Shown here: positions 34,697 to 39,175 of the stretch, piece after piece
How positions within the stretch are numbered: the stretch's first letter is position 1
Layout of the letters: every line of letters begins with the position of its first letter
Notes under the pieces: model-generated
Databases searched by the model: none
Told to the model about the DNA's origin: nothing
Seen by the model: the letters and a program-made list of their open reading frames with translations, nothing else
Assembly (NCBI RefSeq): GCF_004959925.1
Contig: NZ_SPUW01000003.1
Coordinates: 310,001-374,000 of the forward strand
Length of the DNA stretch: 64,000 bases
Reading direction: 5' to 3'
From: Pseudooceanicola onchidii
GTDB taxonomy: Bacteria > Pseudomonadota > Alphaproteobacteria > Rhodobacterales > Rhodobacteraceae
Translations under genes and position numbers: made by a program

Positions 34697-34846
34697 GGCG
34701 GGCCTTTTCGTCTGTCCTTGCGCCTGCTTAGCGGCACGTCTGCGTGAGGGAAAGGCGAATTGGGCGAAAGGCATTGCGGCGCGATGTGGTGGCGTCTAGG
34801 TTTTCCGCGGTCCGGTTTGCCCTAACTGCGGACCGTGGGAGAGTTG

Positions 34847-36316
34847 ATGACCATGATGCAAAAGACCCTTGGATCCCTTCTGTCCGGCGCGGCCCTGACG
34901 CTTGTGCTGACCACCGCTGCGCTGGCGCAGCAGGTGCAGACCAAGCAGTACGACGACGGCGGCGTCTATGAAGGCACCTTCAAGGATGGGTTGCAGCACG
35001 GCACCGGCACCTACACCCTGCCCAATGGCTATGAATATTCGGGCGACTGGGTCGAGGGCGAGATCCGCGGCCGCGGCATCGCCAAGTTCCCGAACGGATC
35101 GGTCTACGAGGGCGAATTCTCCAAGGGCAAGCCGCAGGGCGTGGGCAAGATCACCTTCTCCGACGGCGGCACCTACGAAGGTGACTGGGACGAGGGCAAG
35201 ATCAACGGGCGCGGCGTGGCGCATTATGCCAACGACACCACCTACGAAGGCGAGTTCTTCAACGCCATGCACCACGGGCGCGGCGTGATGACCGCGCCGG
35301 GCGGCTATATCTACGATGGCGACTGGGTCAACGGCGTCAAGGAAGGTGAGGGCACGATCACCTATCCTGACGGCGCGATCTATGTCGGCCAGATTGTGCG
35401 CGGCGCGCGCGAGGGGCAGGGCAAGCTGACCATGCCCGACGGGCTGATCTACGAAGGCACCTGGGCGAATGGCCAGATCGACGGCATCGGCACGCTGACG
35501 CAACCCAACGGCGACATCTACGAAGGTGCCCTGGTCGAAGGGCGGCGCGAAGGGCGCGGCAAGGTCACCTATGCCAATGGCGATGTCTACGAGGGCGATT
35601 TTTCGGACGACATGCGCCACGGCAAGGGGCGCTTTACCGGCACCGACGGCTATGTCTATTCGGGCGACTGGGTGAACGGAAAGATCGAAGGCATGGGCCG
35701 GGTCACCTATCCCGACGGGTCGATCTACGAAGGCGCCTTCACCGATGACCTGGCCAATGGTCAGGGCAAGATCACCTATCCCGACGGCGCGACCTATGAC
35801 GGCGGCTGGAGCGATGGGCTGATCGACGGCAAAGGCATCGCCACCTATCCCAACGGCCTGACCTACGAGGGCGATTTTGTCGCGGCGCAGAACGAAGGCT
35901 TCGGCGTGATGACCTACCCCGACGGCTACCGCTACGAGGGCGCGTGGGTCGGCGGCGAACGGCAGGGCAAGGGCCGTGCGACCTATCCCGATGGCACGGT
36001 CTACGAAGGCGATTTCGTGGCTGGCGAACGCGACGGGCAGGGCACCATCACCATGCCCGACGGCTTCACCTACACCGGCGGCTGGAAAGCGGGCGAGATC
36101 ACCGGCGAAGGCGTGGCTACCTACGCCAACGGCGACCGCTACGAAGGCTTCTTCGAAGCCGGACGCCGCCAGGGCCAGGGCGTGATGACCTATGCCTCTG
36201 GGGAAACCGAAAGCGGCGAATGGATCAACGGCGCGCTGCCGGCCGAAGAGGGCGAGGCCGCCGCGACCCCCGGCGACACGACCCCCGGTGACACGGCCCC
36301 TGCGGCCACCGAATAG
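34847..36316 (+). CDS. Secreted MORN-repeat protein (18 repeats)
   Basis: A 489-residue exported protein. The signal peptide (residues 1-27) ends in AALAQ. From about residue 38 it is nothing but 18 complete 23-residue MORN repeats, each of the form Y-E-G-x-W/F-x-x-G-x-x-x-G-x-G-x-x-x-Y-P-x-G, plus one degenerate copy. A Glu/Ala/Thr/Pro-rich tail (TPGDTTPGDTAP) follows. Start ATG at 34847 is preceded by GGGAGAGTTG; a GTG four codons upstream is less likely. MORN repeats usually bind lipids or serve as scaffolds; here the role is probably envelope-related, which is inference. At DNA level the array is a 69-bp repeat. Confidence 0.9.
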   Translation: MTMMQKTLGSLLSGAALTLVLTTAALAQQVQTKQYDDGGVYEGTFKDGLQHGTGTYTLPNGYEYSGDWVEGEIRGRGIAKFPNGSVYEGEFSKGKPQGVGKITFSDGGTYEGDWDEGKINGRGVAHYANDTTYEGEFFNAMHHGRGVMTAPGGYIYDGDWVNGVKEGEGTITYPDGAIYVGQIVRGAREGQGKLTMPDGLIYEGTWANGQIDGIGTLTQPNGDIYEGALVEGRREGRGKVTYANGDVYEGDFSDDMRHGKGRFTGTDGYVYSGDWVNGKIEGMGRVTYPDGSIYEGAFTDDLANGQGKITYPDGATYDGGWSDGLIDGKGIATYPNGLTYEGDFVAAQNEGFGVMTYPDGYRYEGAWVGGERQGKGRATYPDGTVYEGDFVAGERDGQGTITMPDGFTYTGGWKAGEITGEGVATYANGDRYEGFFEAGRRQGQGVMTYASGETESGEWINGALPAEEGEAAATPGDTTPGDTAPAATE

Positions 36317-36454
36317 CGCGCGCCAGCAGGCGGCCACGGCCCCGCCCGGATTGACAGATACGCCGTTTGCATCATCTGATGGGGCACCCGTCGTGCCGGG
36401 CCCGTTCCGCACGACCTGTCGAAACAAGCAAAAGGTGCCGCCATCTCTGCCCAG

Positions 36455-36697
36455 TTGATCGCAGCCGTCATACTGACCCCCTTTGCCCTGGCCTTCGTCT
36501 ATGCCGGGATCCACGAATACCTGCGCTACAAGTCCGACGGGCGGGCGACCTACGGGCTGGTCTACGACGAAGACACCGGGACGACCCATGTCACCGGCAT
36601 CGGTGAGGACGATACCGCCTACGACCCCGATGACTACGACCCCGCCAGTTACAATGATCCCGACATCGCCACCGACCCGGACGCCGACAAGGCGTGA
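36455..36697 (+). CDS. Small membrane-anchored acidic protein (TTG start, uncertain)
   Basis: An 80-residue frame with one N-terminal hydrophobic helix (IAAVILTPFALAFVYAGIHEY), a short basic segment (LRYKSDGRATYG) and a strongly acidic Asp-rich tail (DDTAYDPDDYDPAS). The composition looks like a real anchored cytoplasmic or periplasmic protein. There is no ATG or GTG near the start: TTG at 36455 is the only choice in frame and lacks a clear ribosome binding site. It ends inside a 12-bp tandem repeat. Confidence 0.5.
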   Translation: MIAAVILTPFALAFVYAGIHEYLRYKSDGRATYGLVYDEDTGTTHVTGIGEDDTAYDPDDYDPASYNDPDIATDPDADKA

Positions 36698-36740
36698 CAG
36701 GCATCGGGACAGGCATCGGGACAGGCGTCGGGACGGGCGG
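36696..36740 (+). repeat. 12-bp tandem repeat
   Basis: Three copies of GACAGGCATCGG (the third with one change) and a partial fourth lie between the small acidic protein gene, whose stop codon they include, and the arginine leader region. Confidence 0.8.
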
Positions 36741-36796
36741 CGTGATGCACCCGCGCCACGACCCGCCACCCCACGGGGGCCGATCACGAATTCCGC

Positions 36797-36825
36797 TTCA
36801 CAGCCCGGCGCGCGCAGGCTATGCC
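36797..36825 (+). promoter_or_regulatory. Putative promoter of the arginine leader/argDF unit
   Basis: TTCACA at 36797, a 17-base spacer and TATGCC at 36820. Transcription would begin at about 36832, which is the A of the leader ATG, so the leader peptide would be translated from a leaderless end. The same -35 hexamer and spacing precede tRNA-Leu at 6137. Confidence 0.5.
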
Positions 36826-36831
36826 CTGCGC

Positions 36832-36885
36832 ATGACCAAGCTGGCCCATATCGCACAGATCCGACGCCGACGCCTCCGCGCCTGA
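36832..36885 (+). CDS. Putative arginine-rich leader peptide upstream of argD
   Basis: A 17-codon frame, MTKLAHIAQIRRRRLRA, in which five of the last seven residues are arginine (codons CGA, CGC, CGA, CGC and, after Leu, CGC). It lies 88 bases upstream of argD and begins exactly where the inferred transcript starts. Leader peptides rich in the end product's amino acid are classic attenuation devices. Ribosome stalling at these codons when arginyl-tRNA is scarce could reshape the RNA ahead of argD. Position, composition and promoter are visible in the sequence; the regulation is inference. A short frame like this can also occur by chance in GC-rich DNA. Confidence 0.6.
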   Translation: MTKLAHIAQIRRRRLRA

Positions 36886-36925
36886 CGTCCCGCCCGCCTG
36901 TTCATTTCCCATATTGTTGACTTTT

Positions 36926-36966
36926 CCCCGAGGGCTATGCTTCCTCAGGGCTTCCCAATCAGAGGA
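36926..36966 (+). promoter_or_regulatory. argD: Alternative hairpins covering the argD ribosome binding site
   Basis: CCCCGAGG (36926-36933) can pair with CCTCAGGG (36943-36950), with one mismatch. Alternatively TCCTC (36942-36946) can pair with GAGGA (36962-36966), which is the argD Shine-Dalgarno. A further CCTC lies in the leader's Arg codons at 36873-36876 and can pair with the first GAGG. This gives 1:2, 2:3 and 3:4 pairings. The stems are short, so this is a suggestion. Confidence 0.4.
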
Positions 36967-36973
36967 TAACGCG

Positions 36974-38149
<1,176 letters not shown>

Positions 38150-38248: not shown

Positions 38249-39175
38249 ATGAACCATTTCCTTGATATCCACACGACCGACAAATCCGACCTGCGCGGCA
38301 TGATTGATCAGGCCCGCACCATGAAGGACGCCCGCGCCGGCCGTCCCAAGGGCGCGCCGGATGACGAACTGCCGCTGGACGGCCGCATGGTCGCGCTGAT
38401 CTTCGAAAAGCCCTCGACCCGGACGCGGGTGTCCTTTGACGTGGGCGTGCGCCAGATGGGTGGCCAGACCATGGTTCTGTCGGGCCAGGACATGCAGCTG
38501 GGCCATGGCGAGACGATCGCCGACACCGCCCGGGTGCTGTCGCGCTATGTCGACATGATCATGATCCGGACCTTCGACGAAGATGTCCTGTACGAGATGT
38601 CCGAATATGCCTCGGTTCCCGTCATCAACGGGCTGACCGACCGCACGCACCCCTGCCAGATCATGGCCGACATCCTGACCTTCGAGGAACACCGCGGGTC
38701 GATCGCAGGCAAGAAGGTGGTCTGGATGGGCGACGGCAACAACGTCTTTGCCTCGTTCCTGCATGCGGCGCAGCAGTTCGATTTCTCGCTGACCTTCTGC
38801 GGCCCGCAACAGCTGGATCCCGACCGCGAATTCGTCGACATGGCGCGCGAGGCGGGGGTCGATTTCACCATCCAGCGCGACCCCTGGAAGGGCGTGGACG
38901 GCGCAGACCTGGTCGTTGCGGATACCTGGGTGTCGATGCACGATGCGCAGTCGTCGCGCGAACGTCGCCACAACCTGCTGCGGGCCTACCAGGTGAATGA
39001 TCGCCTGATGGAGGCCGCGGGCAAGGACGCGCTGTTCATGCATTGCCTGCCCGCGCACCGTGAGGAAGAGGTGACCTCGTCGGTCATGGACGGCCCGCAG
39101 TCGGTGATCTTTGACGAGGCCGAAAACCGGCTGCATGCCCAGAAGGCCGTCATGCGCTGGTGCCTCGGCGCCTGA
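38249..39175 (+). CDS. argF: Ornithine carbamoyltransferase
   Basis: A 308-residue enzyme forming citrulline from ornithine and carbamoyl phosphate. The carbamoyl phosphate loop is [11 protein letters not shown], followed by [16 protein letters not shown], and the ornithine side is DTWVSMHDA (a variant of the DxxxSM motif) and the catalytic HCLPAHR. It has the normal anabolic length. It is 99 bases after argD, with a dispersed element between; the two are probably one transcription unit under the putative arginine leader. Confidence 0.96.

Follow-up and report, generated by a model that had tools for sequence, protein, structure and literature searches.

Proteobacterial attenuators have reportedly been surveyed by Vitreschak and co-workers. 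Within the open-licence literature, to which the search was confined, no alphaproteobacterial arginine leader peptide serving arginine biosynthesis was found.

The trpLE(G) attenuator of Sinorhizobium meliloti contains a leaderless trpL of 14 amino acids (PMC7298713, PMC10117765). The gene described here, for which the name argL is proposed, resembles it in being a short ORF with a run of the pathway amino acid, placed before a biosynthetic gene of an alphaproteobacterium (PMC7298713, PMC10117765), and in its predicted RNA, which, like that of trpL, would start with the ATG. The two differ in the amino acid sensed, tryptophan for trpL and, in our reading, arginine for argL, and in that a terminator/antiterminator switch has been described for trpL (PMC7298713, PMC10117765), whereas none was detected for argL. 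The 5′ end of argL co-evolves with a segment behind its stop codon.

Within the Rhodobacterales, uORFC-8-2 before cysS is comparable in its tandem cognate codons, which are located in the first stem (PMC8632094). There, however, the codons are for Cys, the motif ends in a U run in all cases and the gene that follows encodes a synthetase, whereas a U tract is rare at argL and a biosynthetic gene follows (PMC8632094). Consecutive Arg codons are also found in orf34 of the Salmonella speF leader, where they sense arginine and change the fate of the RNA with involvement of Rho; in contrast to argL, that gammaproteobacterial leader controls ornithine decarboxylase and is described with a 34-amino-acid ORF having a Shine-Dalgarno sequence, a start site 516 bases upstream and RNase G (PMC6386406). 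Arg codons in the small leader peptide rbfL of Staphylococcus aureus sense arginine restriction, but there stalling obstructs the ribosome site of rbf and reduces expression, and the gene controlled is a biofilm regulator, not one of arginine synthesis (PMC13009471). The carA leader of Pseudomonas aeruginosa, likened here by its description, combines leader peptide and attenuation upstream of an arginine/pyrimidine pathway gene; in this case, a citing paper ascribes attenuation to pyrimidines and arginine control to transcription (PMC4997734).

With high probability, argL is a conserved arginine-sensing regulatory leader peptide gene for argD(-argF) in the Rhodobacteraceae, and it very probably senses arginine shortage via stalled ribosomes.

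The argL frame and its conservation

The window, i.e. the whole stretch of 64,000 nucleotides of Pseudooceanicola onchidii DNA that was analysed, holds on its forward strand a 17-codon frame (36832-36885) with its ATG at 36832 and a TGA stop at 36883-36885, the translation of which is MTKLAHIAQIRRRRLRA. The candidate sensor codons CGA CGC CGA CGC, at 36862-36873, are followed by a further Arg codon, CGC, at 36877-36879. From the leader stop to the argD ATG (36974) the distance is 88 bases, and the argD Shine-Dalgarno sequence GAGGA is at 36962-36966. Both downstream genes, on the same strand, were matched over the cut-off by NCBIfam models: argD, for acetylornithine transaminase (36974-38149), by NF002325 and TIGR00707, and argF, for ornithine carbamoyltransferase (38249-39175), by NF001986 and TIGR00658. 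Frame, Arg run, spacing and gene identities agree with what an earlier sequence-only reading of this DNA had given. An Rfam search of window positions 36300-37400 returned no match near the gathering score, and the one sub-threshold match was inside argD.

That reading had also linked an arginine leader peptide to argD and proposed conservation in relatives as a check. Upstream regions of argD were assembled from three sources: a DNA search across the family, which supplied 30 loci (window included), named genomes with 80 loci, and 80 further regions. Removal of 3 duplicates left 187 regions, a set that is biased toward genomes with an argD start resembling that of the window (of the 198 genomes covered by the family-wide search, 110 were used); six of its members, L106-L111, come from records that bear names from outside the family. 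The best named relatives of the window argD belong to Primorskyibacter and Pseudooceanicola. To count as a leader, a frame had to begin with ATG, span 6-24 codons, carry RR or more among its nine C-terminal residues and stop 80-180 bases before argD. Frame and Arg run were found to be kept in most regions, 160 of 187, compared with a mean of 7.1 in dinucleotide shuffles (maximum 12, 20 shuffles) and 8 on the reverse complement. For RRR, 126 of the 187 regions were counted (shuffle mean 1.0), and for RRRR 106 (0.0 in shuffles, 2 on the reverse complement). Judged by these sequence counts, the Arg leader frame before argD is not due to chance, while one member of the 160, the leader of L108, probably is.

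A frame test on CGACG-type motifs, independent of the ORF definition, gave the same picture. Of the 94 regions containing CGACGYCGACG, every one has an open ATG in the Arg frame, whereas the two alternative frames have one in 11 and 3; a stop follows within 12 codons in all 94 as well, compared with 8 and 13 for the alternative frames. For CGACGAG, the Arg frame has an open ATG in 25/25 regions, and for CGACGN, the least strict motif, in 149/166 (alternative frames: 13 and 6). Leader lengths among relatives vary by whole codons, with a proposed ORF range of 9-21 codons, and the synonymous codons CGT, CGG, AGG and AGA occur in their Arg runs. Outside the run, the peptide sequence is little conserved, as expected of a sensor peptide. 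This frame conservation points to a translated leader. It could be argued that CGACGCCGACG is conserved as an RNA or DNA element without being translated, given that its nucleotides are also constrained as part of hairpin P1 (see below); yet the complete agreement of ATG and stop with the Arg frame, the whole-codon length differences and the synonymous codons make this reading very improbable. The translated frame, the Arg run and the leaderless promoter geometry treated below are among the parts of the argL proposal that the comparison supports.

In 150 of the 160 leaders, the Arg run begins with CGA, a codon that is thus enriched there: among 1291 Arg codons of 33 long window ORFs (a greedy ORF list that includes some spurious frames), CGA makes up 9.6%. 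A class of shorter leaders of 9-11 amino acids, e.g. ending in RRA or RRDI/RRDF, was observed in L019, L054, L120, L173 and others. In the own genome of the window, CGACGCCGACG has 40 matches and the reversed pattern 23.

Putative leader promoter and the TTGAC element

Directly before the frame, a candidate leader promoter (named P1 promoter; 36797-36825, + strand) consists of a -35 hexamer TTCACA at 36797-36802, a 17-base spacer and a -10 hexamer TATGCC at 36820-36825, the latter separated by six bases from the leader ATG, which is the predicted +1. The hexamers are located where they had been claimed, and the comparative promoter geometry places the start on or next to the ATG. A generic sigma-70 scan did not call the leader promoter (0; a terminator scan likewise gave 0); support for it is comparative. 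When the 160 regions were aligned on the leader ATG, T was found in 81% at -35, T in 47% and A in 42% at -12, A in 58% at -11 and C in 76% at -1, and the logo of these 160 regions contained no Shine-Dalgarno sequence before the ATG. We infer from this pattern a sigma-70 promoter geometry with +1 at the A of the leader ATG; argL is probably leaderless.

A second element, TTGAC (36917-36921, + strand), is revealed by comparison as the probable -35 of a second promoter directly 5′ of argD. Of the 187 regions, 171 have it 50-75 bases upstream of argD, and a [TG]GC[AT] block follows at +21 or +22 of TTGAC in 118/152 regions with a leader and in 12/19 without. TTGAC is also kept in L074, L075, L083, L088, L095, L158 and L159, none of which has a leader. 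We interpret TTGAC as probably belonging, as its -35, to an older argD promoter, even though the compared regions show no recognisable -10 consensus after it. In the window, TTGAC and the [TG]GC[AT] block together span 36917-36942, possibly an unusual promoter, and the AT-rich HTCC2255 record (L102) has TTGAC with GCA at +22. In some regions without a leader, TTGAC seems to be within a few dozen bases of the end of the upstream gene. A comparison of GGCAC...GGGC with the sigma-54 consensus was also made; this reading was discarded, since it leaves TTGAC unexplained and the 5′ UTR would be about 11 bases.

RNA stems and the output step

Folding the window alone gave no structure that clearly beat dinucleotide shuffles (z −0.68, −0.12, −0.47, +1.57 and −0.93), so that the stems described here rest on comparison. 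For this purpose, a partner-swap test was used, in which the duplex energy of two segments from the same genome is compared with that after swapping partners between genomes; a pairing that is invariant in sequence could escape it. A map of 14 segments was calculated for 151 sequences.

In stem P0, the first 14 bases of the leader RNA (5′ arm, 36832-36845) pair with a segment behind the leader stop (3′ arm, 36892-36905), forming 11 pairs with three 1x1 mismatches in the window fold. Its partner-swap z was −13.3 (−10.7 both with one sequence per genus and with GC-binned swapping); in the 14-segment map, leader bases 1-15 gave z −9.2 with stop+1-15 and −8.1 with the stretch before TTGAC. P0 begins at RNA base 1, 2 or 3 in most sequences, and in relatives its 3′ arm can precede, overlap or follow the largest post-leader hairpin. 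Among the 21 leaders of at most 11 residues, the arm is behind (9) or over (12) that hairpin, never before it. Hairpin P1 (36863-36889), which pairs the Arg codons with the stop-codon region, reached z −8.9 in the map and −4.4 to −6.2 in follow-up checks. Hairpin P3 (36926-36950; 36926-36928/36948-36950 and 36930-36934/36942-36946) had z −9.6, and hairpin P2, which lies behind the leader in relatives and is missing in the window, −6.3. Further map signals linked stop+1-15 to the 3′ side of hairpin P1 (−7.4) and to the Arg codons (−5.4); weaker ones were leader 16-30 with the stretch before TTGAC (−4.6, gone when the whole stretch was taken) and TTGAC with the P3 right arm (−3.7). Stems P0, P1 and P3, all on the + strand, hold in the one-per-genus subset (92) and under GC-binned swapping, while two control pairs were without effect; with P0 and P3 again giving the top swap signals in a finer map, we regard P0, P1 and P3 as supported by the comparison. 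Taken as a whole, the 5′ domain did not exceed shuffles in stability (mean z −0.12, in 51 of the 152 sequences). Tested against shuffled partners, the finer map contained extra complementarities without co-evolution, among them one between the C-rich linker and GGGC of P3 and another between the Arg codons and the argD start. The latter pairing was rejected (z −10.2 versus shuffled partners but −0.7 on swapping; −5.34 with and −5.85 without a leader) and was hardly formed in folds (0.06 pairs).

P3 goes together with the leader. Its co-evolution gave z −8.8 in the 152 sequences with a leader and 0.1 in the 19 without. Its folding energy relative to mononucleotide shuffles had a mean z of −1.86 with a leader (121/152 below −1) and of −0.26 without (4/19). 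Subsamples of 19 sequences from the leader group gave z −0.7 to −5.1. This link is not independent of phylogeny, because the leader state changes only 5 times on the argD tree (107 sequences), leaving 1 to 3 independent pairs, with which no significance is possible. A description of P3 as base pairs in a fixed register was not upheld, mutual information at fixed columns revealing no paired covariation; P3 therefore rests on the register-free duplex tests and folding energy.

Since P3 is downstream of TTGAC and co-evolves, transcripts from the leader promoter seem to run at least through P3. This bears on the possibility that argD is driven mainly from TTGAC and that the leader-promoter RNA is a separate attenuator RNA/peptide, perhaps with its main role in trans like rnTrpL/peTrpL. 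The occurrence of TTGAC with its block in regions without a leader as well would fit such an arrangement, and the positions of P0 (5′ end) and P3 (close to the 3′ end) would be appropriate for a stable small RNA. However, the TTGAC element has no recognisable -10 consensus, throughout most of the family the leader accompanies argD, whose pathway it matches, and P3 co-evolves; we consider this alternative unlikely, yet worth keeping in view.

The sequence-only reading had proposed pairings 1:2, 2:3 and 3:4 between CCTC/GAGG segments, the last covering the argD Shine-Dalgarno sequence. The segments are present as claimed (36873-36876, 36930-36933, 36943-36946 and 36962-36965), but among the pairings only 2:3, which is P3, stands out (z −9.6), whereas 1:2 and 3:4 do not; moreover, stem P0, the P2 hairpin of relatives and the TTGAC element had been missed. 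According to that scheme, a ribosome on the Arg codons would mask segment 1, so that 2:3 forms and the Shine-Dalgarno sequence is freed from 3:4. CCTC at 36943-36946 can indeed pair with GAGG at 36962-36965, as seen in a local fold of 36940-36990. Yet P3 outweighs it energetically, both in the window (−12.1 versus −7.9) and in 133/152 regions, anti-Shine-Dalgarno-like tetramers are present at the P3 right arm in 13/152 regions, and tetramers matching the Shine-Dalgarno sequence occur in 23/152, compared with 26.1 after swapping. Complementarity of the P3 right arm was lower with the cognate ribosome site than with the sites of other genomes (z +4.7; +2.8 to +4.4), from which it follows that sequestration is not conserved, and in ribosome-blocked folding the pairing of the argD ribosome site stayed at about 0.50 in every ribosome state. 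Sequestration as the output is thus quite improbable.

With regard to termination, terminator-like sites (at least 5 T in 8) between leader stop and TTGAC were found in 22/151 regions (shuffle mean 5.0, maximum 13) and, at a threshold of at least 4 T, in 48 (shuffle mean 13.7, maximum 17); the excess at 6 T or more was not significant (3 versus 0.8, maximum 3). A P2-like hairpin was counted in 116/151 regions by a simple stem score, a count without shuffle control; the tail behind it is pyrimidine-rich (C 44%, T 29%), the 8 bases before it having C 40% and T 28%. The window has no terminator-like site between leader and argD and, in line with the sequence-only reading, no U tract behind the leader. 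In leader genomes, the 20 bases before TTGAC contain 40% C and 12% G, compared with 30% C and 25% G in the others, and the best 60-base C>G bubble averaged 0.25 versus 0.10-0.12 in controls. Such a C-rich, G-poor stretch fits Rho-dependent termination, although an unstructured linker looks alike; shielding from Rho is not obvious, because this stretch would stay uncovered by a ribosome that has stalled at the Arg codons. An intrinsic terminator at P3 was considered and rejected: the tail is 40% T with a leader but also 43% T without, and sites with at least 5 T at the P3 end occurred in 8/152 regions (shuffles 0 to 2) versus 2/19 without a leader.

As to a switch, no leader segment was found to co-evolve with P3 or with either arm of P2, and no P2 arm has a co-evolving partner outside P2. 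Blocking the RNA with a ribosome on the Arg codons or the stop left the pairing of P3, ribosome site and start codon unchanged on average, and neither partner swapping nor, on average, ribosome-blocked folding revealed mutually exclusive antiterminator/terminator or sequester/anti-sequester structures. In the window alone (fold to argD+15), a ribosome at the stop led to replacement of P3, the left arm of which then paired with upstream RNA. Given the lack of both a conserved Shine-Dalgarno pairing and an antiterminator partner, neither classical output is established. Intrinsic attenuation of the textbook kind in this genome, with 2:3 as antiterminator and a U-tract terminator, could draw on the above-chance terminator-like post-leader hairpins of relatives and on two conserved complementarities there that are beyond the judgement of the swap test, e.g. 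of the C-rich linker with GGGC of P3 (shuffled-partner z −11.1, swap −1.9); as the window has neither such a hairpin nor a U tract and no 2:3 partner co-evolves, we rate it as improbable. Premature transcription termination before argD is our first choice for the output, ahead of decay or another outcome, at somewhat short of an even chance. The output step is the least certain part in the window because the post-leader hairpin is missing there; possibly, the window carries the system in a reduced form.

Proposed mechanism and regulatory context

In the mechanism that we propose, RNA polymerase would start on or next to the leader ATG, and the leader would consequently be translated as a leaderless mRNA during transcription. 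If arginine or charged tRNA-Arg is short, the ribosome would stall on CGA-CGC-CGA-CGC near the end of the ORF. With plentiful arginine, it would finish and leave, whereupon P0 could close around hairpin P1, pairing the 5′ end, start-codon region included, with the segment behind the stop. The folding state of the leader would then set how much leader-promoter transcript reaches argD, termination presumably taking place at the post-leader hairpin in relatives that have one, or with assistance of Rho in the C-rich, G-poor stretch. Stalling, its direction (starvation raising argD) and the output step are what we infer here, and control would not be free of bypass, as the probable second promoter at TTGAC would circumvent the leader.

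The P0 stem raises the question of whether a leaderless leader is meant for a single reading. Arginine may be sensed essentially once per transcript, P0 capturing the start-codon region after the first ribosome, in a family-wide attenuator of unusual construction, without antiterminator, Shine-Dalgarno switch or ArgR and with a second argD promoter; this we regard as a doubtful, though conceivable, extension of the proposal.

A search for ArgR (PF01316) gave no match in 100 family genomes, whereas the same search matched 9 of 14 control genomes. No argD-style leader was found before argG (16 loci) or argJ (16 loci), some loci being from other families of the class, nor before argC (17 loci), for which the test is weak because most argC matches start inside the protein. 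Short frames bearing RR in L227, L233, L234, L255 and L277 of this argG/argJ/argC set were taken as chance.

The Rhodobacteraceae include abundant marine bacteria. For this family, in which 100 genomes gave no ArgR match, argL is a concrete candidate for the regulation of arginine synthesis, and with it arginine would join the amino acids to which biosynthetic leader peptides respond. Screens that look first for intrinsic terminators, e.g. the one in PMC2965389, would overlook leaders whose U tract is weak or absent; in the main text of that paper, neither 'arginine' nor 'argD' occurs.

Further upstream in the window, a tandem repeat of GACAGGCATCGG (3.6 copies, 36696-36738) directly follows a small ORF (36455-36697) and precedes the leader promoter. 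Before these, at 34835-36316, is a 493-amino-acid ORF without NCBIfam match that consists of repeats, which we take to be MORN-like.
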